A DNA stretch of 64,000 nt from Chloroflexota bacterium (GTDB lineage Bacteria; Chloroflexota; Dehalococcoidia; Lucifugimonadales; Lucifugimonadaceae). Of this stretch, positions 35,446-57,817 are shown piece by piece (position 1 is the first letter of the stretch; each line of letters starts with the position of its first letter). The position numbers and the translations under genes were made by a program. Location: assembly GCA_027624075.1 (NCBI GenBank), contig JAQBUH010000008.1, forward strand, positions 1 to 64,000. The letters are read 5' to 3'. The notes under the pieces are model-generated. The model made no database searches, had not been told where the DNA came from, and was given only the letters and a program-made list of their open reading frames with translations.

Positions 35446-35533
35446 GCCGGGGTGGCGGAATGGCAGACGCAGCGGGCTTAAACCCCGCGGCCTGTTAAAG
35501 GGCGTGTGGGTTCGAATCCCACCCTCGGCACCA
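35446..35533 (+). tRNA. tRNA-Leu (anticodon TAA), CCA encoded
   Basis: A complete class-II tRNA. The acceptor arm GCCGGGG pairs with CCTCGGC (one G-T pair). The anticodon stem GCGGG/CCCGC encloses CTTAAAC, giving anticodon TAA. A long variable arm (GGCCTGTTAAAGGGCGT) and the T arm GTGGGTTCGAATCCCAC follow, and the gene ends ACCA. It marks the left border of the mosaic, phage-gene-containing region and is a plausible integration target. Confidence 0.96.
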
Positions 35534-35537
35534 TAGA

Positions 35538-35570
35538 CCTGGTCCTCCCTGGTCTTCGCGGGAGGCCAGG
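35538..35570 (+). terminator. Hairpin directly after tRNA-Leu
   Basis: CCTGGTCCTCCC pairs with GGGAGGCCAGG (one bulged T) five bases after the encoded CCA. There is no T-run, so it may be a weak terminator or part of an old attachment site. Confidence 0.45.
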
Positions 35571-35612
35571 CATGACCGGGTTGCGGCCGCTGGCTCCGAA
35601 TGCCACGGGCCG

Positions 35613-35831
35613 CTAGCCGCGCTGTTCCCAGTTATCAGCGAGCCGGTCGTATCGCTCATGCAGGGCGGTCACGGTCTCCGCCGCAATGGGCAGCCGTGAA
35701 TTCACCAGCTGAACATTGGATTCCAGGTGGTGACGGCGCTGCATCCCGACTATCGCCACATCGAATGAGAGGGGGTGCAGTGATGTGGGGTCGCCTTTGC
35801 GGCCGGGATGCTTTTTCCGTTTGTTACTCAT
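35613..35831 (-). pseudogene. Fusion remnant: small basic protein start joined to aldo/keto reductase end
   Basis: The frame begins MSNKRKKHPGRKGDPTSLHP, the start of a small lysine/arginine-rich protein whose ATG overlaps the stop of the restored DUF1828/1829 frame (TAATG). From about SFDVAIVGMQ onward the sequence instead reads like the C-terminal end of an aldo/keto reductase (AIVGMQRRHHLESNVQLVNS, then LPIAAETVTALHERYD). The rest of the reductase is absent. I infer a recombination junction near 35763, where an inserted operon cut into a reductase gene; the hybrid frame is probably not functional. Confidence 0.55.
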
Positions 35832-36634
35832 TACTCAGCTTCAGATGCCAATAGAACTTCGCTCAGTTGATCCTGATGACTCCACGAGATCAAATCGGTG
35901 ACCACGCCTTCAAAGGGGCGACGAGCATATTCAGTCCAAACATCTTGGCGGTTTGACCGATCATCGAGAACTACTTAAGGATGCCATACAGTCGTCTTTT
36001 CTAAGATGTTGTTGAAGCGATAACTCCAACGCTCCGCTATAGCGCGAGCGGCTGATTCGTTCGTCTGAGTTAATGGCTGGATCAACAGATTCCGACCTGA
36101 ATTCACATGGAACTTGATTTGCGTAGGCTCCCTTGCCCCCTGCACCTGATAGTCAGTGTCGTATTGCACTCCAGATCGAATTATCAACGTCTCAACTTCG
36201 GCATCGAAGTCCAGCCGCGTATGTGGCCGACGTTTCTCAACTAGCCTGCCCACATTGATCATCGCCTGTACCAAACCATGCACAGCAGTGGGGCCGCTGC
36301 TCACATCAGCCAGATCAACGCTAAGTTCATTGACCTGAAGGTCTGAGTGATATTGAGTTGCTATGCGCCGAATATCAGATAGAGTTTTCCGACTCAAAGC
36401 GAGACCGTTCTGATATAGGTACTCGATGGTTTCGCCGGAGTCTGTAAGCCTAGGTGTTCCTGAGATACCCTTCTCCAGAAATATCTCAAAGTAGTCACCG
36501 TCAGCTCTCATGAAAGGAGTAACGATCACACAAAAATGTGCGTTAGAAACCGTCTCAAACCGATCACCAAGGGAACGCACGTAGGCATTTGCGAGTTCTG
36601 AGCATGATTGATCAGCCATGTCTACGTCCCTCAC
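35831..36634 (-). pseudogene. DUF1828/DUF1829 protein gene with in-frame stop
   Basis: The first frame (36634-35975, 219 residues) has a DUF1828-like N-terminal domain (CSELANAYVRSLGD, FCVIVTPFMRADGDYFEIFLEKG, LTDSGETIEYLYQNGL) and the beginning of DUF1829 (LIIRSGVQYDTDYQVQG, ARAIAERWSYRFNN). It stops at TAA 35975-35977, yet the same frame runs on for 47 codons as VVLDDRSNRQDVWTEYARRP and LISWSHQDQLSEVLLASEAE, which fits the missing DUF1829 end. Its GTG start overlaps the upstream stop by four bases; ATG 36619, with GAGG nine bases upstream, is an alternative. Function unknown; found in accessory DNA. Noticeably A+T-richer than the surroundings. Confidence 0.65.
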
Positions 36635-37029
36635 ATTACTCTCTGATAAGTACCTTCAAGGGTTACGTTGCATTCAGCCAGGAATGCCATCAGTTCGTCG
36701 TTTGAGTCTCCGTACGTCATGTCATCTGGTACGTAAACCACACGGTCTTGATATTCGTCGGTGAGTCTGTGTTTGTGGGGGCCCTGAATGGTTTGTCCAT
36801 CCTCAGGATTGGTATGCCGAGCCCAATCCGATGCGCACAGACGCCGTACCGTAACGTTGTTGCAAAGGAGCGAATAGCTGTGACTTCTACCAGCAACAGC
36901 GCGCAACGAAAGCAGTGTTTCTGAGTTCAATGCAAACACTGTCGCTTCTATCTTCAGGCGTCCGCCATCATGACGCCAGCGTAGATTTTCACGAATTACT
37001 TTAGGTTCCTCCATTAAGAGTTCATGCAT
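36631..37029 (-). CDS. DUF6978-like protein, operon partner of DUF1828/1829
   Basis: A 132-residue protein of unknown function resembling the DUF6978 group: the central GPHKHRLTDEYQDRVVYVPDDMTYGD and the end ELMAFLAECNVTLEG are the recognisable parts. It overlaps the DUF1828/1829 gene by four bases (ATGTGA), so the two are cotranscribed and probably act together. Its first codons overlap head-to-head with the truncated terminase frame (divergent), showing that this is a junction. A defence, toxin-antitoxin or immunity role is only a guess from the location. ATG 37011 (MEEPKV) is an alternative start. Confidence 0.55.
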   Translation of the reverse strand: MHELLMEEPKVIRENLRWRHDGGRLKIEATVFALNSETLLSLRAVAGRSHSYSLLCNNVTVRRLCASDWARHTNPEDGQTIQGPHKHRLTDEYQDRVVYVPDDMTYGDSNDELMAFLAECNVTLEGTYQRVM

Positions 37030-38277
37030 CCGGAAGGCTCACTGGCGCTCGACCTGCAGCGGCTGTGGCCGGGAGTCAACTTCAGTTCCCGCATCGACCC
37101 CGGCGAGATCCGCGTCCCGGTTCCGTCTGCTGATGGGCGGAGCGTGGCGGGTCACTTCACAATCCGCACCAAGTCTGCTTTCGACCCGACCAGTCTCGGA
37201 ATGGAGTCGCCGGTCTGGATCATTCTGTGTGAGGCGGCGCGAGTTTCTCAGGACGTCTATCACCGTCTCCGGTCACGCTGTTCGGAGGCGAGACGCCGGT
37301 TCCCAGAGTTTGGCTGGCTACACATGGAAGGTACGTTTGAAGGGTCTCTCGGATGGTACCCGACGCTATGGACGCGCTGGCAGTCTGCGGCCATCCAGGA
37401 GCGAGAGGACGCCCGCTCCTTCTCGCTCCCTTCGCACTCCAACACGGCGCTGTTCCCTGGCGGTTTCGATGATCCGCAGATTTCCGCGCTCCGACGCGTG
37501 CTGCCAGAGGCAAAGTTCATGGAGCGTCACATGGGTGTTCCGGTCCCTCCATCCGGCCGCGTGCACAGCTCATTCGGCGCTGGTCTGCACGTGCGTGAGG
37601 TGAGGTACGACCCCGGGCAGCCTGTTTTCATCGGGATCGACCCCGGTTACTCCGGCCAGCCATCCACCTACGCCGTTGAGGTATGCCAGCTCAGGAAGTT
37701 CGAAAACGGTCACCGGCAGTGGCAGGTGATCGATGAGATCGCTATCAACCGGCACGCAATGCCGGGGTTCACGGTGGCCGACGTCTGCGACATTGCGATG
37801 AGCAGGCCGTGGTGGCAGAACCCTCACAAGACGGGCGTGATCGATGTCGCCGGCACCGCGCACGCCGGGGCGCAGGAGAGCAACGCTGAGGTGTGGCGCA
37901 GGCGGACCGGTCTCGTTCTCATGCACGAGAAGGTGAGCATCCTGCCGGGGATAGACCGGTTCGACACCTGCCTGAAAGTGGACGAGGAGACTGCCGAGCC
38001 CGGACTTGTCATCGACCCTGCGTGCGAGCTTCTGATCTCAGAGCTTGGCGGTGGGCCAAACCCTTTCGACGGCCAGTCGCATATGTATCGATGGAATACA
38101 GATAGAGCGGGCGACGTGATCGGCCGGGTGCCGCGTGACGAATACTGCGACGGGATCAAGGCGCTGACATACCTGTTCATCAACGTCATGGGATACGCCG
38201 GGCGCGGGCGACTCGGCGTAGCTGAGCCGGCGAGGATCAAGGTCAGGAGCCGAAGGCAGCGAGCGGGTCAGCGGTGA
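37024..38277 (+). CDS. Phage terminase large subunit, 5'-truncated
   Basis: DNA-packaging motor protein lacking its N-terminus. Visible parts are the Walker-B-like PVWIILCEAARV, the coupling segment WLHMEGTFEGSLGWYPTLWTRWQ, and the RNase-H-like nuclease domain with its acidic residues in FIGIDPGYSG, GVIDVAG and YCDGIKALTYL. A complete TerL would carry about 100-130 more residues with the Walker A loop before this; upstream lies the reverse-strand DUF6978/DUF1828 DNA instead. The product could at best be a nuclease fragment. It is the first of the phage morphogenesis genes, all on this strand. Confidence 0.8.
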   Translation: MHPEGSLALDLQRLWPGVNFSSRIDPGEIRVPVPSADGRSVAGHFTIRTKSAFDPTSLGMESPVWIILCEAARVSQDVYHRLRSRCSEARRRFPEFGWLHMEGTFEGSLGWYPTLWTRWQSAAIQEREDARSFSLPSHSNTALFPGGFDDPQISALRRVLPEAKFMERHMGVPVPPSGRVHSSFGAGLHVREVRYDPGQPVFIGIDPGYSGQPSTYAVEVCQLRKFENGHRQWQVIDEIAINRHAMPGFTVADVCDIAMSRPWWQNPHKTGVIDVAGTAHAGAQESNAEVWRRRTGLVLMHEKVSILPGIDRFDTCLKVDEETAEPGLVIDPACELLISELGGGPNPFDGQSHMYRWNTDRAGDVIGRVPRDEYCDGIKALTYLFINVMGYAGRGRLGVAEPARIKVRSRRQRAGQR

Positions 38278-38293
38278 GAACGTCGCCTCGAAT

Positions 38294-38785
38294 TTAGCCG
38301 CCCGCCTGCCGCAGCGCCTTCTCCAGTAGCTCAAGCGCCCTCAACGCGAACAGCTCCATGTTTTCGGCGCGGTCTGCCATCCCGGTCTCCAGCGTCTCGC
38401 TCAGCTCGACTGGCCCTGAGACCGCTACGCAGGTGTGACCCGCATCGTCGCCGTAGCGGTTGCCCGCCGGGCCGGCCGCTCCGGTCTCACTCAGTCCCCA
38501 GGTCGTGTTCAGTCGCTCTCGCGCCGCCGACGCACAGAGCAGCGCGTATGGCTCGGACGCCGACCGCATCCCAGGGTGCGCTTCCAGGTCAACCGCAAGA
38601 AACGCGTCACGGGCAGGGCCGGTGTATATCACCGCTCCACCCATGAAGTACGCCGAGGCGCCGGGTACCGAGAGCAGCGCGGCAGAGACGAGTCCGCCGC
38701 TTGAGGACTCCGAAACCGCAACGGTCTCCCGGCGGTCCTTCAGCAGTCCGCCAACTTTACCGGCCAGTTCATTCAGACGGCTCAT
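38294..38785 (-). CDS. CinA-family nicotinamide-nucleotide amidase domain protein
   Basis: Stand-alone CinA C-terminal domain (PncC type), which deamidates NMN to nicotinate mononucleotide. ETVAVSESSSGGLVSAALLSVPGASAYFMGGAVIYT and WGLSETGAAGPAGNRYGDDAGHTCVAV match the family, although the usual VAESCTGG start is altered to VSESSSGG, so activity is uncertain. Start at MSRLNEL with GGGAG upstream. It lies antisense between the terminase and the virion operon and is a cellular rather than phage gene. Confidence 0.82.
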   Translation of the reverse strand: MSRLNELAGKVGGLLKDRRETVAVSESSSGGLVSAALLSVPGASAYFMGGAVIYTGPARDAFLAVDLEAHPGMRSASEPYALLCASAARERLNTTWGLSETGAAGPAGNRYGDDAGHTCVAVSGPVELSETLETGMADRAENMELFALRALELLEKALRQAGG

Positions 38786-38979
38786 TGGATTCTCCCGCCG
38801 ACAGTAGAGCAGATCGCGTGAGTCCGGGCAACCGGCTTTCTGCGCCTGACACGTGGTCTTCAATTCGAGCCAGGAGCGACCCTATTCTGGACTTCAGGCG
38901 GCCAGTGTGACCAATCGGTCCAGAGCCGTTGGGTAGGCGGTTCGTAAAGCGCGGCTCTCTGTTTCAGCGGGGGATCCTT

Positions 38980-39984
38980 ATGCCTGACAACTTCACGAGT
39001 GAGCTTGTTGACTCGGCCGGCGAGGTCTTCGCTACAGACGCAATCGGAGGCTCGTCCGTTCACTATCCTATCGGCAAGCTGGCGTGGGGTCCGCTGAACA
39101 CGGCGAACCTGACGGACACCGCCAACCCTCTGCCGGTGCAGATCAACGGCAACGGGACATCGTCGAGCGCTCCGTTCTTTGTCCGCGGCGCCAATGACGA
39201 TTCCACAGTTCCCATCTCCGGTACGGTGAGCCCGGCCGCGGGCGCCTCTTTCGCCGTTGCAGTCGACTCCGCAGACATCATCCGCGCAAAGCTGGTCGAG
39301 TCTGACTCGAACGGCCCTGTCTTCTCAGAAGGCGACTCAGCGGTGGCGGCGAGGTTCTTCGCCGTTGGGTTTGAGAGCGACTCCGTCGCCAACGTGTTCA
39401 GCGTCATCTCATCTGGCAGGCCGCTACCCGTCCAGGGCGACACCGTCGTCTCTATCACCGGATACGTTGCGCCATCGACCGCTGTGACCGTGACGAACAT
39501 GTCTGACTCCACGGTGACCGTGAGTGGGACAGTTACGGTGCAGGGCAACGCGTCCGTGGCAATCGTCGCAGGGTCGTCTGTTTCGATTTCCAACGACTCC
39601 GCCGGTCAGATCGGGGTCGGTCTGAACGCCATCGGCGGCAACTCGGCGGGAGCGCTCCAGACATTTACAACAGTGCTCAGCTCCGCACTCGAGACCGTCA
39701 CGTCGAGCGCCGGCCGGCTCTACGGATACATGCTGACCAACCCTGACACGGCGGCGATCGTGTACGCAAAGATATTTTCAGACGACTCGACCGGGGTGAC
39801 CAAGGGTACGACGTCTCCTGTGCTCAACCTGGGAATACCTCCTGTTGGCGGCGCCAACGTGACCTTCGCCCAGGGAGTCTTGATGTCCAGCGGGATGTCT
39901 GTCATGGCGGCAGGCGGCGCCGGACTGACCGATACGTCAGCGCCCGGCAGCAACCTTGTGGTCAATCTGTTCTACAAGGGCTGA
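38980..39984 (+). CDS. Phage virion-associated protein (first gene of virion operon)
   Basis: A 334-residue, very Ser/Thr/Val-rich beta protein (VTVSGTVTVQGNASVAIVAG). The C-terminal third, RLYGYMLTNPDTAAIVYAKIFSDDS ... NVTFAQGVLMSSGMSVMA ... NLVVNLFYKG, resembles a type common in virion gene clusters of uncultured tailed phages. It is probably a surface or tail decoration protein; no capsid fold is recognisable. GCGGGGGAT precedes the ATG at 38980. It starts a run of six same-strand genes to 44071. Confidence 0.6.
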   Translation: MPDNFTSELVDSAGEVFATDAIGGSSVHYPIGKLAWGPLNTANLTDTANPLPVQINGNGTSSSAPFFVRGANDDSTVPISGTVSPAAGASFAVAVDSADIIRAKLVESDSNGPVFSEGDSAVAARFFAVGFESDSVANVFSVISSGRPLPVQGDTVVSITGYVAPSTAVTVTNMSDSTVTVSGTVTVQGNASVAIVAGSSVSISNDSAGQIGVGLNAIGGNSAGALQTFTTVLSSALETVTSSAGRLYGYMLTNPDTAAIVYAKIFSDDSTGVTKGTTSPVLNLGIPPVGGANVTFAQGVLMSSGMSVMAAGGAGLTDTSAPGSNLVVNLFYKG

Positions 39985-40070
39985 GCGGGCTGTCTCTATG
40001 TGGCTGTCCGGCTGGCCGCGCCCGGCGGCGAACGGTCCCGTTTCAAGGTGTGAAGGATTGAGGTGGTCCG

Positions 40071-40265
40071 ATGGGTTTCTGGTCGACGGTCCTGACGGCG
40101 CTTCGGTTCAGGTCGGGACGGCTGCCCGTGATTACGGAACCTCTGAGCGTGCGCCGGCTCCGCCTCGACGCGTCAGTTCCACGGTTACGGCGGGACACGG
40201 TGACGGTGCGCAGGGTGTTGAGTAACAGCAACGTGACCCACAGGGTTCGAGTGGAGGTGAAGTGA
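40071..40265 (+). CDS. Small basic phage-cluster protein
   Basis: A 64-residue arginine-rich protein (MGFWSTVLTALRFRSGRLPV...) of unknown function. The ATG has GAGGTGG at a good distance, and its TGA overlaps the ATG of the next gene (TGATG), so the two are translationally coupled, which supports it being real. Confidence 0.5.
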   Translation: MGFWSTVLTALRFRSGRLPVITEPLSVRRLRLDASVPRLRRDTVTVRRVLSNSNVTHRVRVEVK

Positions 40266-40612
40266 TGGCCAGGCAGTCATGGGGTGAGCCGGACGGTATT
40301 CCTGAAGGGTCAGATTTTTCATTGGAGGCGGTCCTGACCGTTAACGGCGCGATAGCTCCGTCCCAGGTGACCTCCAGCGGTGCGATCACGCTGTCGGTCG
40401 AGAACACGGTCGAGCCGATCATTCCTCTACTGATCGACGAGGTACGCGACGCGGTGGACGCGCCCTCGGGACTCGTGCGTTGGAATATCACCGATGCGCA
40501 GTCTTCCGCGTGGCCTGCGGGGACGTTCAACGGCGACATCAAGCTGATCGATTCGGGCGGGATGATCACGTACTGGCCGGTGAGTCTCAAGATCAGGAGC
40601 GTGATCGACTGA
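40265..40612 (+). CDS. Hypothetical virion-cluster protein
   Basis: A 115-residue acidic protein with beta-sheet-type sequence (GDIKLIDSGGMITYWPVSLKIRSVID at the end, VRWNITDAQSSAWPAG before). This resembles small tail or baseplate components acting on applied virion proteins in other phages, but I do not recognise a family. GGAGGTG precedes the ATG, which overlaps the preceding stop. The ORF-track start (GTG 40262) is one codon too early. Confidence 0.55.
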   Translation: MARQSWGEPDGIPEGSDFSLEAVLTVNGAIAPSQVTSSGAITLSVENTVEPIIPLLIDEVRDAVDAPSGLVRWNITDAQSSAWPAGTFNGDIKLIDSGGMITYWPVSLKIRSVID

Positions 40613-40673
40613 GTCTCCCCTGATCGATTTTCCGGCGAGGTTTAGAGAGCAGCGGATGTGAGGTGAAGGTGAG

Positions 40674-41942
40674 ATGCCGGCAACACAACGGCGGAACAGG
40701 AAGCAGCTTCGGCATTCGATAGGCCTGCTGCTGGGCGCGGTGCGGCACGAAGGTGGCGTTGTCGAATCTAGTCCGTCTGAGGCGTCACAGAACGCGGCGA
40801 AGATCACAGACACCACCCTCGCTTACGGCACAGACAACGAGCACCGCGGCAGGTGGGTCTATGCGACAGACGCAGGCGGCGCAACCCACGTCAGGCGCGT
40901 GTTTGCCTCTTCGCGGGACGAGCGCTCTATAACGGTGTCGAAAGCGTTCCCGGCCGTGCCAGACAGCACGTGGATATACGAGCTCTGGGATATCGATGTG
41001 CCGCCGGGCGTTGTGCATGAGTTCATCAACCAGGCGATCAGCGGCGTCACCCGCAAGGGCTCCGTCGAGGATGTTGACGACACCTTTCACACCGGCGGCC
41101 GTATCAACTCATTTGCTCTGTCTTCCAACTGGACAGGGGTAAGGGATCTTAACTGGCGGTCCGGGTTTGCCGGTCAGCAGATCGCATCGCTGGACCAGCC
41201 GTTGACCGAGCTTACCGCGAACGTGAGCGCCGTTGCCGACTCAGCGGATTTCCGCCAGGGGAGCGCGGCGGCACGGCTAGATGTGGGGGCTGCCGCCGCG
41301 GCCAATGAGGCGCTTGCGGAGGCGGGTTTTACCGCTGTGGACGGTCGAGGCTATGACCGCGTTGAGTTCTGGCACAAGTCGAACGGCGCCATCACCTCGT
41401 CGAACCTCGTCGTGCAACTCAGGCAGGGGTCGTCGACCCATGAGTCGATCCCCGTGCCGGCCACACTGGCCACGCAGAGCGGCCAGTGGCGATACGCCTC
41501 GATGGCACTCACCGCGCCAGAGCGTAACAACGCTATCAACGCGGTCCGCGTGGCGGCGGGGAGTAGCGACGGCGGCGCGATAACCGCATGGCTCGACGAC
41601 GTGAAGCTGGTCAGGTCTAACTCCGAAGTGTGGCATCGGGTGCCGCGCGAGTTCTGGCGAGTTGGCGCAGCCAGCAGGCAATTCACGCTCACAGATGACG
41701 CCCGGCTGCGGGTCACCGGTGTCCGGGCGCCAACGCTACTCGACTCAGACTCGCAAATCTGTGAGGTGGATACGCAGTATGTGATCAATTCGACAGCCGC
41801 AGGCGTGATGCGCTCCAGGAGCGACCGGCGAGGCGCAATCAGAGACGCCGCCATGCAGCAGGCGGACCTGTACGAGCAGATTGCGCAGACCCAGCGCCTC
41901 AGAATGAACACTCCAGCAAACATCAGGTGGGTGGACGACTAA
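40674..41942 (+). CDS. Large virion protein with carbohydrate-binding-like section
   Basis: A 422-residue protein. The N-terminal third (GRWVYATDAGGATHVRRVFASSRDERSITVSKAF) resembles phage tail proteins, and the middle (NVSAVADSADFRQGSAAARLD ... YDRVEFWHKSNGAITSSNLVVQL ... WLDDVKLVRS) reads like a jelly-roll CBM-type domain. The C-terminus is helical. Probably a tail, fibre or baseplate protein binding a surface glycan; inferred from layout. GGTGAAGGTGAG precedes the ATG. Its TAA overlaps the next ATG (TAATG). Confidence 0.55.
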   Translation: MPATQRRNRKQLRHSIGLLLGAVRHEGGVVESSPSEASQNAAKITDTTLAYGTDNEHRGRWVYATDAGGATHVRRVFASSRDERSITVSKAFPAVPDSTWIYELWDIDVPPGVVHEFINQAISGVTRKGSVEDVDDTFHTGGRINSFALSSNWTGVRDLNWRSGFAGQQIASLDQPLTELTANVSAVADSADFRQGSAAARLDVGAAAAANEALAEAGFTAVDGRGYDRVEFWHKSNGAITSSNLVVQLRQGSSTHESIPVPATLATQSGQWRYASMALTAPERNNAINAVRVAAGSSDGGAITAWLDDVKLVRSNSEVWHRVPREFWRVGAASRQFTLTDDARLRVTGVRAPTLLDSDSQICEVDTQYVINSTAAGVMRSRSDRRGAIRDAAMQQADLYEQIAQTQRLRMNTPANIRWVDD

Positions 41943-43777
41943 TGGCAAATCCAGCTGTGACCGGAAAAGGGCAGATCTGGCTGGACGGCCGGACCTACTC
42001 AATCGACGGCCCCGTCCAGAGAGAACTGGCGACGCGCTTTGCTCCCAAGACCGTAATCTGGGACTACACAGATGAGTCGAATCCGCTGGTTTCGACTGCC
42101 ACGTGGCGGTCATGGAACGGTGGGTTCGGGCTCGAAACTGTTCGCAGCGCAGACGACTTCAACCGTCACCGGTGGAGTTCCCTCTACACCCGGTTGCCGA
42201 ACCACCTGATGCTGGGGCCGAGCATACGTGAGTTCGGGGGTGGGCTCGGCACCTTCCTCAGCCGTTACTTTGACTTCAACGACGATCTGTATGTGATCGA
42301 CGGGAACAAGGTTCACTTCTACGACGACGCAAACGACAGCTTCGTGCTGGCGCCGGTCCGGATACTCTCTACCGACGTGACAGACGCCACGACCGGAGTG
42401 CTCAACGGCGAGCCGGTGACCGTGATAGCGCAGGGTATCGCGACTGACTGGTCGTCCAACGCAAGTGACTCAGCCGCGTGGAACCGTGATCTGACTGACA
42501 TGACCAGGGTCACTTTCTGGAGAGACCTCCTGTGGGGCACAGACTCTTCGGACCAGCTGTTTTTCACGAACGATCTCAACGATGGTTGGACCCAGGTCGC
42601 GACGCTTCCTGAGCCTTCAGCAGATGTCGTAAACCTGTTTGCCGGGCCGTCAGGAGATCGCGGCGACCCTGAGGCCCTGTACCTCGCCACTCGCCGGGGC
42701 CTGTGGGTGTACGACAACCTCAGCGAACGGTTCCGCAGCACCGGTCTCACGATGCCGCGCTCAAACGCGTCAGCGGCCGCGTGGAACGGATCGGTGTACT
42801 ACACCAACGAGCAACGTGTTTTCCGGTTCACGCCAGGGCCAACGAATGTTGTGGATGATCTAACGCCGGTCGTCGTCTCAGACAGCGTTACTCCCGGAGA
42901 GTTGCTGGGTCACTACCAGGAGGCGCACCCGGGTATTGACGGCGTGTTCTTCCTCACCAGCGGCAAGCCGCACATTCACCAGTGGGACGGCAAGGCGTGG
43001 AGCAGCCTGCCGGGCGATGGGAACGGCGGCTTCCAGGCCAGCGAAGACATGGGTGGCATGTTCCTGTCGACGGCCAAGGGCAAGCACCGCCTTGTGTACG
43101 GTCATCTCAAGTTGTTCGCCTTCAACGGGAGCGTGCGAATAAATCTGCCTGTGCTGAGCACGGACCTCATCGGTCAGAGCGGCCAGGGCTTCATGCACAT
43201 CGGACAGCTCGTCACGCCCTGGTTCGACGGATTCGTCTCGGGGCGAGACAAGCTAGCGGTGAGCATCGGCCTTGAGGTCTCGATTCCAGACTCCGCGGAA
43301 ACTCTCCGGATCACCTATTCGAAGGATGACGGTGCCGTGGCCGGGCAGATTCTCGAACTGAACGATCCGGGTTATCACGCGATCACTGTGCCGATACGAG
43401 ACAAGGATGGTAAGGCCACCGGTGTGCTGTTCGACAGAATCTCACTCGGAGTTGAGATGGAGATCGACCTCGCTGACGCGTCACATCTCCTGCACAGCCC
43501 TGACTTGAAGCGCCTATCGCTGAACTACATCAAGGCCCAGCCCATCCGGTGGGCGTACAGTTTCCTCATCCAGCCGGAAAGTGGTGAGAGCGGCGCTGAG
43601 ATCAGGCGGTCCCTGGAAAAAACGTTCGAGAAGCAGTCCCTGGTCGGGTTCGCATTCCATGATCCGGCTTCGGACTTCGAGGAGGAAAAGCTCGTGACGC
43701 CGATAAGCCTCAGGAGTGAGGAGATTACGGGCCTGGAGGAGCGGGGCAAGTTTCGGATTGTGGTCACGGAGGTCTAG
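41942..43777 (+). CDS. Large virion protein, beta-propeller-like
   Basis: A 611-residue protein with repeated strand-turn units (DDLYVIDGNKVHFYDDANDSF, LWGTDSSDQLFFTNDLNDGW, ALYLATRRGLWVYDNLSERF, SVYYTNEQRVFRFTPG, GVFFLTSGKPHIHQWDGKAW) that suggest a propeller in the first two thirds, then a beta-sandwich end. Such proteins occur in phage tail tips and fibres. The ATG overlaps the upstream TAA, and the next gene begins directly after its stop. The ORF-track start at 41927 is inside the upstream gene and less likely. Confidence 0.6.
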   Translation: MANPAVTGKGQIWLDGRTYSIDGPVQRELATRFAPKTVIWDYTDESNPLVSTATWRSWNGGFGLETVRSADDFNRHRWSSLYTRLPNHLMLGPSIREFGGGLGTFLSRYFDFNDDLYVIDGNKVHFYDDANDSFVLAPVRILSTDVTDATTGVLNGEPVTVIAQGIATDWSSNASDSAAWNRDLTDMTRVTFWRDLLWGTDSSDQLFFTNDLNDGWTQVATLPEPSADVVNLFAGPSGDRGDPEALYLATRRGLWVYDNLSERFRSTGLTMPRSNASAAAWNGSVYYTNEQRVFRFTPGPTNVVDDLTPVVVSDSVTPGELLGHYQEAHPGIDGVFFLTSGKPHIHQWDGKAWSSLPGDGNGGFQASEDMGGMFLSTAKGKHRLVYGHLKLFAFNGSVRINLPVLSTDLIGQSGQGFMHIGQLVTPWFDGFVSGRDKLAVSIGLEVSIPDSAETLRITYSKDDGAVAGQILELNDPGYHAITVPIRDKDGKATGVLFDRISLGVEMEIDLADASHLLHSPDLKRLSLNYIKAQPIRWAYSFLIQPESGESGAEIRRSLEKTFEKQSLVGFAFHDPASDFEEEKLVTPISLRSEEITGLEERGKFRIVVTEV

Positions 43778-47821: not shown

Positions 47822-48937
47822 GTGACTCGTTGGGTAAGTCTGATTGCTTCGGTCACCGTACTGTTCGCAGCCACAGGCTGTGCCCCCGGTGTTGGCGCAG
47901 AGTCACCGCCTGTGAGTGAAACCCCCGCGATCCCCGGTCCTGCAGGACGTGCGGTGGCTGCGTTCCCGACCTCCACGCCTTGGCCAAGGTTCGGGCCTCC
48001 TCCCGTTACGTCTGCGTCTATCACGGTCACCGCCATTGCTGTAACGCCAGCTCCAGTCGGATCCTCGACGGCAGGGGGTTTGCCTGGCTCGGCGGGGTCG
48101 TCTGCGCCAAATCCAGAGCCGGACATGGCCGTGGACCCCGTCGACCCATCAGACATGCAAGCTTCACCGACGCCCACCGCTGGTCCGGCGCCAACTCCTA
48201 CGGCGATGCCGCCTCTGACTCCGCCGGACAGCTCAGGGACCTTCGTGCCTGCCGTTGCGAAGAACTACGTTGTTCCTGATGAGTGGCACGCAGTTGTCGG
48301 TGACGATGAGATAGTTATTGCACACTCGTCCGGCGCCGCCCGGATCACCCTGCGAGAGCATCGCGTCGACCGGTCAGAGATTCTGTCCCTGCGCGAAATA
48401 ATCTCGCTCGGCGAACCGGATCGCTTCATCGACTGGAGTGAGCGGTCACTCTTGGCTTCGAGGGCGCTGAGCGATCTTGCCCATGAGTTCTCGTACTCCG
48501 GGACGAAACGTGGCGAGCCGTATGTGGCGACTGTGCAGTGGCGTTTGCGCGGAGAGCTGCTCATCGAGGTGGTAACCGAGATGGCTGCGGCACGCTGGTC
48601 CGGCGATTCAAAACTGCGCAACACTGCCGCCCTGGCAGCCGCTTCGTTTAATCCTCTCCCGGACGCGGCTCTTGCATCGGCCGTCGAGATCGAGGGCCAG
48701 CTACTGGTGAGGTTCAACCAGCGGCGCAGCGGGATCTTCCTGTCTTCGGATAGCAGAGCGGGACGGACAGAGTTGACATGCCGTGAAGTGCTCTACGACT
48801 TGCTTTCGCCGCCAGTCTACGTCGGTTCCGGCGTCTGGCTGGTGTTTGCAGTCGGCGACCAGGGCGCGCAGGTATGGCAGATCTTCGAGCCTTCGCTGTC
48901 CATCGTGCCGTCCGCTCACAACACCAGCGGCTGCTGA
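47822..48937 (+). CDS. Lipoprotein with Pro/Ala-rich linker, unknown function
   Basis: A 371-residue envelope lipoprotein: the signal MTRWVSLIASVTVLFAATGC has a typical lipobox (AATGC). A long disordered Pro/Ala/Thr-rich linker extends to about residue 145. The globular part (WHAVVGDDEIVIAHSSGAARITLREHRVD ... AVEIEGQLLVRFNQRRSG) has no family that I recognise; its strand pattern suggests a beta-rich fold. The GTG start at 47822 fits the signal sequence. Its end overlaps antisense with a truncated methyltransferase remnant. Confidence 0.65.
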   Translation: MTRWVSLIASVTVLFAATGCAPGVGAESPPVSETPAIPGPAGRAVAAFPTSTPWPRFGPPPVTSASITVTAIAVTPAPVGSSTAGGLPGSAGSSAPNPEPDMAVDPVDPSDMQASPTPTAGPAPTPTAMPPLTPPDSSGTFVPAVAKNYVVPDEWHAVVGDDEIVIAHSSGAARITLREHRVDRSEILSLREIISLGEPDRFIDWSERSLLASRALSDLAHEFSYSGTKRGEPYVATVQWRLRGELLIEVVTEMAAARWSGDSKLRNTAALAAASFNPLPDAALASAVEIEGQLLVRFNQRRSGIFLSSDSRAGRTELTCREVLYDLLSPPVYVGSGVWLVFAVGDQGAQVWQIFEPSLSIVPSAHNTSGC

Positions 48938-51864: not shown

Positions 51865-52694
51865 CACCGGAACAACCCCGGAGCAACTTCGGAGCAAGGT
51901 CTGTCTGATCAGCGCGTCATGGCGCCTGCGCGAGTGTCTGCCGTAATCGTTCAATGAGCAGGCAATTGCGCACGCGCTCGGGGACCAATCGGGACGCTAC
52001 CAGGTCTCGACGTTCCAGTCATCCGGTCTGGAGATGCCGGCCCTGCGCGCCGTTTGCAGCCGGTGGGTCAACTGTGCCTGCTGAAGTGCCCGGGCGGCTC
52101 GCTTAAGCTCTCGAACAGCCTGATCTCGATCGACCGTTGAGGCAGAAAGCTTCGCGTCTGCAATCCGCAGCAAATACTGCGAGCGTGCCCGGGTTACTGA
52201 CAGGTTTCGGTCCATTGCGGTTTGTGCCCTTCATCATCGGGTGTCTTGCCGGATTCGCTGCCGGATTCGCCGAGTGTGTGCCATGGGCCAATCGGCCAAT
52301 CGGCCAATCAGCCGGGTCACCACATGCCTGCCACAACCTGATTGTCTCCACAATGCACGGCGGTGAGATGAGAGGCGACACCTGCCGCGGTTGCTGCCTG
52401 ACGCTGGAGATCTCACATGAGCCCATCACGTGCCCGGCACGGAGCAGGCCGCCGGGCCGGATCGCGGTTTGCGCAACCGGTTGGTCCCCATTCTGTCCTC
52501 GCACTGGCAGCGCTATGCGACGGTTCGCCGGGACACAACTCTCGATGTCCGGATCTGTGCTGCATGCACTCCTCCAGCCCTCATGTGCCGCTGTGCCGGC
52601 GGTACCGGACACGGCGGTCTCTGTGCCTGCTCAGCCAGCCCGCAAAATGGTGGACTGAGGCTGCGCTCGAACCGTGAAGTCAGGAGGCTGTGTG
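51865..52694. other. Mostly non-coding gap before second phage block
   Basis: Over 800 bases. It contains one possible small reverse-strand gene (51997-52215, separate entry) and short direct repeats, GCCGGATTCGCT/GCCGGATTCGCC (about 52250) and three copies of GGCCAATC (about 52285-52310). The open frames on both strands otherwise look like shadows. Confidence 0.35.
51997..52215 (-). CDS. Small helical protein, doubtful
   Basis: A 72-residue frame rich in Ala, Arg, Gln and Leu with a regular helical pattern (DQAVRELKRAARALQQAQLTHRLQTARRAG) and a polar end DDWNVETW. Only a weak AAGGG site precedes its ATG. It may be a real small phage or host protein, or chance. No family recognised. Confidence 0.35.
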   Translation of the reverse strand: MDRNLSVTRARSQYLLRIADAKLSASTVDRDQAVRELKRAARALQQAQLTHRLQTARRAGISRPDDWNVETW

Positions 52695-53780
52695 GTGCAA
52701 GAATCGATGGCACGTGACGAGAGTGATGAGCCGGTGGATGCAACTGCCCTGAAATCAGGCAGCGGCCCGGTGGACTCACCGCCGGAGTCAAGGTCCGCCG
52801 GACCGCGCGACGTCTGTCTCCTTGGATATGCGGAGGAGACGCGCGACCTTGTGTTCGGACTTCCGGAGACTACTGAGATCTGGGCCATCAATATGGCGCA
52901 CGTCTTTATTTTTGGCCCGCAAGGACCAAAGACCCGGGCAGCCGCTACTTACTGGTTCCAGATTCACCCTCGAGACTGGGCGGCGGCAGGGAAGGCTCCG
53001 ACCGGTTTCTTCGGCAGGCCAAAAGAGCATCTCGATTTTCTTGCCAGGTTCCAGGGCACGGTCTGGATGCAGGCTGCCGACCCCGACATACCGAACTCCA
53101 GGCGATATCCACTCGAGGACGTGATTGCGGCGTCGGGCCGTCGTTACTTCACCTCTACGTTCGCCTACCAGCTGGCCCTTGCCTGGTACGAACACGCCGT
53201 GCTGGGCCGGAGCATCGGGAAGCTGCGTGTGTACGGCGTAAACCTGACCAGCATGGACGAGTACATCCACCAGAAGTCATGCGTCGAGTACTGGCTCGGC
53301 AGGCTGGAGCAGCTGGGAGTCGATATCGAGATTCCGGGTGCGTCCGCGTTGCTCCAGGGCAGGCTGTACGCCATCGGTGAGTCAGACCTGTCGAACCACG
53401 CCTTCGAGCGCCTGCAGTTCTGGAAGAGCAAGTACACCGAGGCGTGGGCGAACATCAACACGTCGAACAGCATGAAGGCGGAACTGAAGTTCTGGGCCGC
53501 CCAACTGTCCGCCATCGCGGAGGCTCATCCGGACGAGATCAACGCGGAGATCAGGGCCAGGATTCAGAGTGTATTCGACCGGCGCTCGGCGAACCTCAAC
53601 GCGCTCCAGGAGCGGTCCGGCGCCGAGTTGAACGGGGCGCTTGGCATGGTGAAGGACAACCAGCACTGGCTTGCGATCACCGGCGGGATTGACCACAGGG
53701 CGCCGCAGCTCCCTGACCTGAGACTGCCCGCCGAGTACCTGAGCGGTGACTGGACGGTCCCTGAGCCGAAGGCAATTTAG
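52695..53780 (+). CDS. Phage-cluster Rossmann-like protein
   Basis: A 361-residue protein. The N-terminal half has a Rossmann-like pattern, DVCLLGYAEETRDLVFGLPETTEIWAINMAHVF, then WFQIHPRDW, WMQAADPDIPNSRRYPLEDV and FTSTFAYQLALAWYEHAVLG ... LRVYGVNLTSMDEY. This set recurs in proteins encoded beside terminase/portal genes of uncultured phages, with unknown function; a nucleotide-sugar or glycosyl enzyme is possible. The C-terminal third is helical (AAQLSAIAEAHPDEINAEIRAR). AGGAGG seven bases before the GTG at 52695 decides the start. Confidence 0.55.
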   Translation: MQESMARDESDEPVDATALKSGSGPVDSPPESRSAGPRDVCLLGYAEETRDLVFGLPETTEIWAINMAHVFIFGPQGPKTRAAATYWFQIHPRDWAAAGKAPTGFFGRPKEHLDFLARFQGTVWMQAADPDIPNSRRYPLEDVIAASGRRYFTSTFAYQLALAWYEHAVLGRSIGKLRVYGVNLTSMDEYIHQKSCVEYWLGRLEQLGVDIEIPGASALLQGRLYAIGESDLSNHAFERLQFWKSKYTEAWANINTSNSMKAELKFWAAQLSAIAEAHPDEINAEIRARIQSVFDRRSANLNALQERSGAELNGALGMVKDNQHWLAITGGIDHRAPQLPDLRLPAEYLSGDWTVPEPKAI

Positions 53781-53809
53781 CCGCCAGTCTGCTACCCGTT
53801 CACTGGCGC

Positions 53810-53980
53810 ATGACACCTCGCTTTGAACGCCCTTACCGCCGAAATAGTCTGAAAACAGAGGCGCCAGAAGCGCCAAACCACTCATCTGTAGAGCCGGCGG
53901 AAAGCCTCTCTGCACAGATCAATGGAACCAGGGAGTGTGCGGATTGGCTATCGACAACGGGCGATTTGCAGGAAGAGTGA
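53810..53980 (+). CDS. Possible 56-residue ORF coupled to portal gene
   Basis: ATG 53810 opens a 56-codon frame (MTPRFERPYRRNSLKTEAPE ... CADWLSTTGDLQEE) too short for the ORF track. Its TGA overlaps a GTG in the portal frame (GTGA at 53977), suggesting coupling. No ribosome-binding site or family is recognised, so it may be chance. Confidence 0.35.
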   Translation: MTPRFERPYRRNSLKTEAPEAPNHSSVEPAESLSAQINGTRECADWLSTTGDLQEE

Positions 53981-56166
53981 CCGGGTCGACCGGCGTGATT
54001 GACGCCCGTCCGGCCGCAGCTGGCGAGCATTCGCCTCCCGATGCGGCTGGCGGGCGGGCGGAAAGATCTGCTGGAGTCCGCCCAGGCGTGGCGTCTCCCG
54101 TGGAGATGCACCTGGGACGACTCGCCGAACTCGCGCCCGACATCGGCGCGCGGATAGAGCAGAAGTTCAGAAACCTGTCGAGCGTGCATGACCGCATGGA
54201 CGCTGACTACTCGCTCTACGCACTGGACCACTGGCAGCCAGACGTCGCCGAGGCGCTGTCGCCGGAAGATATCTACACCACGAACGAGCCACGCGTGCTG
54301 GCCGAAAAGGTGATCTCATTCATCACGGCCACCGAGCTCGTGGTGAGGGCGCCCAACGATGACGCGCGTGAGCGGCAGGAGTCTGCCAATGACCTCGCCG
54401 AACAGCTCGCCATCGGCATGCTCAACAACATCGACCGCCGGCACCGCCGGTTGGGCCATCCGCCTGTCGTAGACGCGCTGGCATTCTTCAGCGTAGTCCG
54501 AGGCCGGTACGCAGCGGCGCGCGCCGTGCTCCGCAAGCGGCCAAACGGCGAGACGTTTGAGGACATTCTTCCCCTGGACCCACGGCACCTGTGCGTTCAG
54601 CCAGGCGTCGAGGAGCCACTGTGGGCTGCCTATCGGCTCCGTCGCTCAGTGCTGGAGGTCCGCGAGGAGTTTCCTCACTTCGCATTCGAAAACGGCCACT
54701 GGTCCGATGACGGCGAAGGCGTGGATGTGTTCGAGTACTTTGCTCGTGAGGAGAACCCTGAGTTCGACGTTACTTCACGCGACCCGTTCCGGCGCCATCC
54801 GTTCATCTACGTGGCTGGCACGATTGTTGACGGCCAGTGGGCGCGGCTCCCGCACAACCTCCACATGCTGACGTTCCCGGTGGTCGTGGCCCCTGTCGGG
54901 CCTCAACCGATGCTTGCGCCAACGGAAAAAGAAGACTCTCCTGATGTGCACTTCGGAGAGAGTATTTTCGCCGAGAACCGCGGTGTCTGGGACAGGTTGA
55001 ACCGGGCGACATCGTACGTTCTAGACCTGACCGGCAAAGCCTCCGACCCGCGCAAGAAGGTGTTCTCGCTGGACGGCACGAAGTCCCTTGATGACGGCGC
55101 CAATGACAAAGGCGCCGAGATCAACCTTTCGACAGCTAACCAGGAAGACGTGCAGAGCTTTCCTGAGGCAGACATCAATAGCGCCGTCGCCCTGTTGATC
55201 CAACAGTTGCAGAAAGACGCCGTTGCCGGAGGTCTGCCGCCACAGGCGTTCGGCCTGCTGGATAAGCCGCTTTCATCTGTCGCACTGAGGCAACTTGGCA
55301 ACAACCTGGAGCACCGCGTCCTGCCGCGAATGAGAGCGGTTGCCCGCTGTATCGAGGGCTGCCTGGAGAACCTGATCGCGCAGTATGAGACTGGCGCCTT
55401 CAACCCCATCAGTGTGTCTGGAAGACGGTTCGACAACCACCGTTTCGCCAACCGGCTGATCGAGCCTGAGGACCTGGCCGGGCACGACCCGCTTGAGGTC
55501 TCGATGGCCCTTGCGCTGCCGGAGGATGAGGTGACCCGATGGACCGTGGCGCAGATGGCCATGCAGCCCACTCTGAACGGTGAGCCGCTGGCTTCGCTGG
55601 AGTGGGTGCGTGAGCGTGTCTTGAAGATGCAGTCGCACCGGCACATCCAGAGTCAGAACCGGGAGGCCCAGGCTGTTTCGCAGGACCCTCTTGCCCAGGC
55701 GATGGGCATGTTCACGGCGGCGCTCAAGGATGGAGACAACGCACTCGCCGCGATCTGGTTCGACAGGCTTCAAGTTCTGCACTTGCAGAGGCAGGTAGAG
55801 GGACAGACAGCGGTGAGGCGGCTCCTGGCGGAACGTCCTTCCGGCGCTGGCCCTTCAGGTGTTGGCAAAGAGGCGGAAAGCGCAGGGTTGCCGGATCTCG
55901 CGTCCCTGCTGGGCGAGTCTGCCGCCGGGAGTTCGCCTCTTAACGGTGGGAGCACGCTATTTAGTCCGAATCCGCTCGACGCTGTGCCGCGGCTCAACCA
56001 TGCGCTGAATCCGGCGAACGGGGCCATACCGTTCGCGCAGGCGGCCGGCGTCGGGAGCGCGCCGTCTGCGCCGGACATCAGGATGGCGGGAGCTGCAAGC
56101 CAGGGCGTTACGAGACCAGGTCTGGTTGGCGCAGACGGTGAGCCGTTGACCAGCACAGTGTCCTGA
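53977..56166 (+). CDS. Phage portal-like protein
   Basis: About 729 residues, probably the dodecameric portal at the capsid vertex. Portal-like stretches are LAELAPDIGARIEQKFRNLSSVHDRMDADYSLYALDHW near the start, the core ILPLDPRHLCVQPGVEEPLWAAYRLRRS, the wing GESIFAENRGVWDRLNRATSYVLDL, and the clip-side PEADINSAVALLIQQLQKDAVAGGLPPQAFGLLDKPLSSVALRQL with the typical LPPQ/S-A-L-R pattern. The C-terminal 150 residues are low-complexity Gly/Ala/Pro. Start uncertain: GTG 53935, GTG 53977 (overlaps a short ORF) and ATG 54102 are candidates. The identification rests on pattern and context. Confidence 0.65.
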   Translation: MTGSTGVIDARPAAAGEHSPPDAAGGRAERSAGVRPGVASPVEMHLGRLAELAPDIGARIEQKFRNLSSVHDRMDADYSLYALDHWQPDVAEALSPEDIYTTNEPRVLAEKVISFITATELVVRAPNDDARERQESANDLAEQLAIGMLNNIDRRHRRLGHPPVVDALAFFSVVRGRYAAARAVLRKRPNGETFEDILPLDPRHLCVQPGVEEPLWAAYRLRRSVLEVREEFPHFAFENGHWSDDGEGVDVFEYFAREENPEFDVTSRDPFRRHPFIYVAGTIVDGQWARLPHNLHMLTFPVVVAPVGPQPMLAPTEKEDSPDVHFGESIFAENRGVWDRLNRATSYVLDLTGKASDPRKKVFSLDGTKSLDDGANDKGAEINLSTANQEDVQSFPEADINSAVALLIQQLQKDAVAGGLPPQAFGLLDKPLSSVALRQLGNNLEHRVLPRMRAVARCIEGCLENLIAQYETGAFNPISVSGRRFDNHRFANRLIEPEDLAGHDPLEVSMALALPEDEVTRWTVAQMAMQPTLNGEPLASLEWVRERVLKMQSHRHIQSQNREAQAVSQDPLAQAMGMFTAALKDGDNALAAIWFDRLQVLHLQRQVEGQTAVRRLLAERPSGAGPSGVGKEAESAGLPDLASLLGESAAGSSPLNGGSTLFSPNPLDAVPRLNHALNPANGAIPFAQAAGVGSAPSAPDIRMAGAASQGVTRPGLVGADGEPLTSTVS

Positions 56167-56248
56167 GTGAGTGGCGTCTGAGAGCGGTCATCGCAGGCAA
56201 TCAGTCACGCCGCCGGTTGCCTAACTGGTTGGAATAAGGGGTAAGGCC

Positions 56249-57817
56249 ATGTTCTTCAGTGTTTTTGTCCCAGGGTTTGGGAGCGTGTTCGTGGACGCCG
56301 GCAGCCCAGCGCTGGCGAATGCGGCGGTGCGTCAGTACCTGAGCCGCAACCGGGTCCGGCTCGAAGAGGGCGCAGACATTGGGGTTGCAGTCCTGGTCGG
56401 TGCCGGCCAGATCGGAAACAACCTGTTGCTGAACAGCGGTGGTGTTCCGGTCCTTCCTCCTGTTCAAACACCTCCGGTGACGCCAGTGACGCCAGTGACG
56501 GCGCCGGAGCCGGTTGTGGATGATGCTGAGCCGCAGGACAGTGAGCCGGGGATGCCGGCATCGCCCGGTCCGGGTTCTGGCGCGGGAGATGGCCCGGCGA
56601 CAGAGGACGGCACTGGCTCAGAGCCGTCTCCGCCTGCACAGCCCCCCGCTCAGCCAGTTGTCGAGCGGCTGTTCAGGTTCGACGTGCCGGTCATCGGCGA
56701 CCTGTATGTGCTCGCAACCACGGCAGGTGATGCAGTTTCCGCTGGCCAGGCCCACGTCGAGCTGTTCCGGGAAAGCAGCGGACTTCCCGCCGGATTCCGC
56801 CTCGGCCTGCCAGAAACGCTCGCAGTCGGCGACTTGCCTGCGGGCGCCGACCCGAACTTCGTGATCGATTCGACAGGTCTGATACGTGACGATCTCCTGA
56901 CAGGCGCCTCTTCTGCGCCCGATCAGGGCGAACCTCCAACGGTTCCGGTTTCCGCGCAGTCCGGGCAGGCGTTTTTTGTTGGCAAGGTTATCGGGGCAAA
57001 CGGCGTTCCCGGATTCTTCCGCTTAGACGCCAGAGACACAAGAGACACGTCAGAGGCTCGTGCCATTCTCGAGTCCCGGTTCGGGCCAGCCTTCCGGGTG
57101 GAGATCGTAAGTTCTCCGGAATTCCTGTTCGACACAGACACTGACTTCGTCGCTTCTCTCCAGCGCAGCCAGCTTGGAGACGTGGACGCGTTCGTCCAGA
57201 CACTTGCGCTGGTGACGGCTCCGGAGGCCACTGAGACGGCCGGCGAAAACTCAGGAGGGCCACTGTTCGGCGATGGCAGCCTTCCGGTGGACGTTCAGCA
57301 GTTCCCATTCGCCAGTTTCCAGAACGCGGTTGCGGCGCTTGGGCTCGACCCCGAGGGCGCGCTTGGCAGCACGATAAGCCGGCAGTTCGACACTCTGGCC
57401 CCTGTGGCGCAGATCGGCTCATTGACAGGCACCGTCGGGCCGATCGGTCAGTCGCCGGGCGCGCTAGAGGGATTCTTCCGGGACCAGTTCGGAAATATTG
57501 GCATCGCAGCGCAGACTTTTCGAGACCTGCTGGCCGGGCAAACGAGCGGGGACCTGAGCGCAGACCAGCTGCTGGCGTTCCGGGCACTGGCGAATCCGGA
57601 TGTGTCCACCAGCCGAGGGCGAGGCGCAGCTGGAGACGTCTTCGGGCTTGCCAGGGCCGCTGCGGAAGACCGGTTCGGATCATTCGTGGCGTCGCGGCTC
57701 CTGCCAACAAATCAGCGACTGTTTCGGGAACTGGAGCGGCAGCTCGCTGACGGTCTGCCAGACACCAGCTTTCTGGAGTTTGCACGGAGCCAGAACCTGT
57801 TGCCTGTGCCTGTATGA
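56249..57817 (+). CDS. Phage structural protein with triplicated small domain
   Basis: A 522-residue protein in which a small domain of about 50 residues appears three times: FFSVFVPGFGSVFVDAGSPALANAAVRQYL (residues 1-50), FRFDVPVIGDLYVLATTAGDAVSAGQAHVELF (about 142-190) and AFFVGKVIGANGVPGFFRLDARDTRDTSEARAIL (about 238-290). Pro/Thr/Ala-rich linkers join them. The C-terminal 200 residues are helical with FRDQFGNIGIAAQTFRDLLAG. Probably an internal or neck protein following the portal gene; no named family recognised. A further small gene follows. Confidence 0.5.
   Translation: MFFSVFVPGFGSVFVDAGSPALANAAVRQYLSRNRVRLEEGADIGVAVLVGAGQIGNNLLLNSGGVPVLPPVQTPPVTPVTPVTAPEPVVDDAEPQDSEPGMPASPGPGSGAGDGPATEDGTGSEPSPPAQPPAQPVVERLFRFDVPVIGDLYVLATTAGDAVSAGQAHVELFRESSGLPAGFRLGLPETLAVGDLPAGADPNFVIDSTGLIRDDLLTGASSAPDQGEPPTVPVSAQSGQAFFVGKVIGANGVPGFFRLDARDTRDTSEARAILESRFGPAFRVEIVSSPEFLFDTDTDFVASLQRSQLGDVDAFVQTLALVTAPEATETAGENSGGPLFGDGSLPVDVQQFPFASFQNAVAALGLDPEGALGSTISRQFDTLAPVAQIGSLTGTVGPIGQSPGALEGFFRDQFGNIGIAAQTFRDLLAGQTSGDLSADQLLAFRALANPDVSTSRGRGAAGDVFGLARAAAEDRFGSFVASRLLPTNQRLFRELERQLADGLPDTSFLEFARSQNLLPVPV

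Follow-up and report, generated by a model that had tools for sequence, protein, structure and literature searches.

A decayed copy of the DUF6978/DUF1828 candidate defence pair in a Chloroflexota genome, and a profile link between DUF6978 and the toxin TumE

A broken gene pair in a foreign segment

The stretch of DNA analysed here, 64,000 nucleotides in length (the window), carries two overlapping reverse-strand genes between a tRNA gene and phage genes. The features of the locus are the following:

35446..35533, forward strand: tRNA-Leu(UAA), a neighbour conserved in the genus (tRNA prediction and relatives' DNA)
35613..35762, reverse strand: remnant of an aldo/keto reductase C-terminus, read through from the small protein (70-73% identical DNA in the related genomes G400, G401 and G404)
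35763..35831, reverse strand: start of a small basic protein, MSNKRKKHPGRKGDPTSLHPLSF, broken off at the junction after ~23 codons (the same genome has a paralogue)
35763..37017, no strand assigned: foreign segment of 1,255 bp with the broken pair (relatives' homology breakpoints and low G+C)
35834..35974, reverse strand: tail of gene 2 past the premature stop, DUF1829-like, in the same frame (BLASTP to a relative's C-terminus, E 6e-4)
35975..36634, reverse strand: gene 2, DUF1828 part, PDC-M24B, putative antitoxin or sensor, 219 aa (PF08861, PDC-M24B)
36631..37029, reverse strand: gene 1, DUF6978, PDC-M24A, TumE-like putative toxin, 132 aa (PF22398, PDC-M24A)
37024..38277, forward strand: terminase large subunit, 5'-truncated (phrog_2, E 3.2e-9)

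Genes 1 and 2 share 4 bases, and domain searches bear out both the reading frames and the families given in a preliminary description of this DNA: gene 1 matches DUF6978/PF22398 at E 7.2e-9 and gene 2 matches DUF1828/PF08861 at E 5.4e-11, both above the curated Pfam cut-off. Both proteins also match the PADLOC-DB models of a single candidate defence system, PDC-M24 (gene 1 to component A, E 3.5e-10; gene 2 to component B, E 1.9e-18), which was catalogued in 2023 with no function given. The preliminary description had put the module forward as possibly undescribed; this is wrong in part, as the pair is catalogued, though our literature search for a function of DUF1828 or DUF6978 in the searchable library found none. 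A search against NCBIfam returned insignificant matches only, and profile searches of PDB sequences with gene 1 or gene 2 gave nothing useful. A promoter scan of 35550-37400, uninformative in itself, predicted none.

The window copy matches PDC-M24 in that its genes are adjacent, on one strand and overlapping, and it differs in being broken at both genes. Gene 1 opens with four codons (37018-37029) that derive from the terminase gene on the opposite strand, so its own start and N-terminus are lost; the closest relative in our sample of the phylum, 42% identical, starts a few residues earlier. A single in-frame stop cuts gene 2 short at codon 220 of 267, as read in one draft assembly in which an error at this position is possible. 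A frameshift was considered and rejected, because the sequence after the stop stays in frame. Among homologues of gene 2, DUF1828 is found in 20/20 and DUF1829 in 19/20; in the window gene the likeness to DUF1829 is confined to the tail past the stop (E 6e-4). The window copy is probably dead.

The G+C content of 35763-37017 is 49.3%, compared with a window mean of 62.3%, and lies below that of all 251 same-size sliding windows; the segment is therefore foreign in composition, in keeping with the earlier remark that these genes are richer in A+T than their surroundings. The reported neighbours are also in place, with tRNA-Leu(UAA) on one side and the terminase fragment on the other. We compared the DNA of the tRNA-Leu region with that of six other species of the genus. 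On the left, the match to the relatives ends at 35762, within an aldo/keto reductase gene that is complete in G400, G401 and G404 and adjoins the tRNA in G400 (the copy at locus L105 is PF00248). On the right, the match restarts at 37018, within the relatives' terminase large-subunit gene, whose full-length counterpart lies at L108:8374-9942 and whose N-terminal part is lost in the window. The insert has truncated gene 1 at its start, the small reading frame next to gene 2 (gene 3) at its end and, on either side, the reductase and terminase genes.

The distance from the tRNA to the point equivalent to 37018 is ~7.4 kb in G400, ~5.5 kb in G403 and 1.5 kb in the window. The stretch that is replaced includes, in the relatives, genes for a major head protein and a scaffold-like protein, together with the N-terminal part of the terminase. 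This region is absent from the whole assembly of the window's genome, as is the head (capsid) protein of the genus, so the 1,255-bp foreign fragment most likely stands in place of 5.5-7 kb that the relatives retain. We regard a chimeric assembly as an improbable source of this arrangement, and a real insertion as the likelier one: the genome is a draft in 60 contigs, 89% complete, and two abrupt breakpoints fall inside 1.3 kb, but a chimera would usually keep the replaced DNA and the capsid protein on another contig, and both are missing from the assembly.

The pair in other genomes

DUF1828 occurs in 23 and DUF6978 in 13 of 400 genomes sampled from the phylum (the window's own genome counted), and in all 13 genomes that bear DUF6978 it stands directly beside DUF1828. 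Of 71 DUF1828 loci, drawn from the phylum genomes together with viral contigs, phages and plasmids, 60 have a frame that matches the DUF6978 profile immediately upstream and in the same orientation; most of these frames overlap the DUF1828 gene or lie at most a few tens of bases from it. The figure counts loci, not independent events, as a small number of near-identical copies are among the 71. The 11 loci that have no same-strand DUF6978 neighbour are mostly short DUF1828 fragments or lie at a contig edge. Genes 1 and 2 form an almost obligate two-gene unit. Counting co-occurrence had been proposed as a check on a module of three genes; the count upholds the pair and fails for the third gene, which is taken up below.

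At two loci (L125 and L130), the DUF6978-profile frame and DUF1828 are on opposite strands, and the pair may be arranged divergently there. At L131-L134, prophage loci in viral contigs, short proteins of 125-144 aa with DUF1828 alone are encoded after DNA methyltransferase-like genes, and DUF6978 is missing; these are either remnants or cases of DUF1828 partnered with other genes. At L030 and L032, from two genomes of a single genus, an ORF of 80-93 aa, DUF4926-like by eye, follows gene 2.

The pair is spread across phages, plasmids, bacteria and haloarchaea. No relatives came up when genome contigs were scanned with the single window protein; alignment-based scans found one haloarchaeal locus and 29 viral loci. 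In Lactobacillus prophage Lj965, Staphylococcus phage 37 and the Streptococcus phages Javan249, Javan642 and MissF, the pair has the repressor on one side and the integrase on the other; it adjoins the integrase side in Latilactobacillus phage P3 and the integrase in the satellite phage Javan357, and plasmids and a halovirus carry it as well. Elsewhere it stands next to genes for DNA methyltransferases of type III or another kind, for an HmaB-like/DUF1156 methylase and for an AbiLi/PDC-M38A-like ATPase.

A profile relationship between DUF6978 and TumE

In the alignment of gene 1 homologues, K10, H72, H85 and H87 are invariant and R63 and N74 nearly so. We compared the DUF6978 profile with that of TumE (PF20126) by hhalign and obtained a probability of 88%, a score of 40 and a pairwise E-value of 3.3e-6, the last referring to a single comparison with a family that was picked because of its motif; the R.D..H..H.H stretch was aligned. 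The 40 scrambled or reversed controls scored no higher than 15.1 and the unrelated family DUF1828 scored 16.4. An earlier comparison with four sequences had given TumE a probability of only 12%, and enlarging both alignments raised the figure. One DUF6978 member matches the Pfam TumE model at E 0.003, which is below the Pfam cut-off; gene 1 of the window matched DUF6978 only in the Pfam search, with no TumE match above the cut-off, and a TumE scan of the viral contigs found none. We consider it well supported, though not proven, that DUF6978 is related by profile to the toxin TumE, and this link is new.

TumE is a validated toxin that targets translation, and an RNase activity has been proposed for it and is unproven (PMC10584680). 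The AlphaFold model of gene 1 (pLDDT 90.5) combines alpha helices with antiparallel beta strands, the architecture of TumE of the TumE-TumA system (DUF6516, PF20126), with which gene 1 also shares an R.D..H....H.H profile. A Foldseek search of the PDB with this model found no match, and TumE has likewise been reported to lack one (PMC10584680); against viral models, Foldseek returned only an uncharacterised siphovirus protein (E 1.4e-3). The two systems differ in gene order and partner: in known systems the TumE gene is mostly downstream of its antitoxin gene, but DUF6978 precedes its partner, which is a DUF1828-DUF1829 protein and not a known TumA.

The predicted fold of gene 2

We modelled an intact homologue of gene 2 (pLDDT 91.3, pTM 0.53). 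Foldseek matched the model to the PD-(D/E)XK nucleases Bax1, Cdn1, Card1, Can2 and PspGI with probability 1.00 and TM-scores of 0.31-0.38. From the order of its elements, the model appears to contain two PD-(D/E)XK-like folds in tandem. No obvious (D/E)xK catalytic pair was seen by eye in alignments of either half, and the folds probably lack nuclease activity. Gene 2 thus resembles in fold the PD-(D/E)XK nucleases that carry sensor domains (Card1, Can2, Cdn1); unlike them, it has no clear catalytic motif, shows no sign of a CARF domain and is not CRISPR-linked here.

A second likeness comes from HipAD (also DS-6 or PDC-M66), a system that protects E. coli and consists of a HipA-like kinase and a DUF3037-DUF1829 protein, DS-6B (PMC13092281). 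DUF1829 is common to the putative neutralising partners of both systems, whereas the HipAD toxin is a kinase and DUF1828 does not occur there; no HipA-like kinase ORF lies beside gene 1 or gene 2 in the window. In Retron-Sda1, a related HipA/DUF3037 system, loss of the DUF3037 partner of the HipA-like kinase was toxic and loss of the kinase removed defence (PMC12548924).

A putative toxin and its proposed neutraliser

On balance, we lean towards reading the insert as a decayed copy of mobile PDC-M24, and PDC-M24 as a mobile anti-phage toxin-antitoxin system made up of a TumE-like toxin and a DUF1828-DUF1829 antitoxin or sensor. In intact copies, gene 1 would be a toxin of the TumE superfamily that halts translation, probably through RNA cleavage by its invariant histidines. 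Gene 2 would bind and neutralise this toxin, and its PD-(D/E)XK-like folds may also sense infection, such that a phage that upsets the control exerted by gene 2 would release the toxin and the infection would abort. The likeness to TumE, the fold of gene 2, the DUF1829 domain of HipAD and the behaviour of Retron-Sda1 together favour gene 1 as the toxin, gene 2 as its neutraliser or sensor, and abortive infection as the outcome. The preliminary description had guessed at defence or a toxin-antitoxin module; this accords with the pairing at 60 of the 71 loci, the prophage locus, the defence genes nearby, the PADLOC listing and the TumE likeness, with the qualification that the window copy is a decayed remnant.

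A bolder version of this reading is conceivable but doubtful. DUF6978 and TumE would form one toxin superfamily, and DUF1828-DUF1829 would be a new kind of antitoxin built of two catalytically dead folds of the restriction-nuclease type, which would release the toxin on detecting nucleic acid or nucleases of a phage; prophages would carry the pair to exclude competitors.

We think it unlikely that the roles are reversed, with gene 2 as an effector that cuts phage or cellular DNA through its PD-(D/E)XK-like domains and gene 1 as a sensor or regulatory subunit. The nuclease matches at Foldseek probability 1.00 and the occurrence of gene 2 without gene 1 at some loci are what this arrangement would draw on, but the TM-scores are low, neither half has an obvious catalytic pair, most of the loci with gene 2 alone hold short DUF1828 fragments, and the strongest invariant polar set lies in gene 1.

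Slightly less likely again is a module for prophage maintenance or superinfection immunity that targets the lysogeny circuit of the prophage itself and does not serve general phage defence. The consistent position between repressor and integrase is what such a module might show; the presence of the pair on plasmids, beside chromosomal restriction-modification genes, and in bacteria and haloarchaea argues against it.

The window copy is a fossil, yet it points to a widespread candidate defence pair. The listing of that pair as candidate defence was already known; the TumE link and the PD-(D/E)XK-like fold of gene 2 are new here. Together with the DUF1829 link to HipAD, they turn a pairing of two domains of unknown function into something that can be tested concretely.

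The small reading frame next to gene 2

The preliminary description had joined the small basic protein to genes 1 and 2 in one accessory module. The ORF at 35613-35831 is a chimera, in which ~23 codons of the small basic protein are fused to the reductase C-terminus. The small-protein motif is found within ~2 kb downstream of DUF1828 at 0 of 62 loci, and of only 3 raw matches from a pattern scan across viral contigs, none had such an ORF; the protein is not a regular member of the pair. Its paralogue in contig C56 of the same genome is coupled to a PemK/MazF-type toxin gene, so the small protein keeps other company. With a chimeric ORF that is a junction artefact and not one co-occurrence in 62 loci, the three-gene idea therefore falls, and we rejected it as very improbable despite the TAATG overlap that joins the end of the gene 2 frame to the small ORF and despite the toxin gene beside the paralogue.

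At that second site (G000:C56 ~48074-48566; L075:5075-5567), a 49-aa protein (MAFKRLKHLGRRSDSTSLHPLSFDEAMDAL...) that resembles the N-terminus of gene 3 overlaps the PemK/MazF-type toxin gene. This protein is possibly an unrecognised small partner of PemK/MazF-type toxins.

Neighbouring phage genes

In the window (37024-43777 and 52674-57817) and at loci L105 and L108, phage genes for head and packaging proteins (terminase, major head protein, portal-like and structural-like) are scattered among housekeeping genes, in an order that related species share. Among 5 of the 7 genomes available for the genus, the head protein has an identity of 92-95%, although the DNA around it is only ~70-75% identical to that of the window. 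These scattered genes look domesticated, perhaps as a gene transfer agent, which would be damaged in the window's genome.
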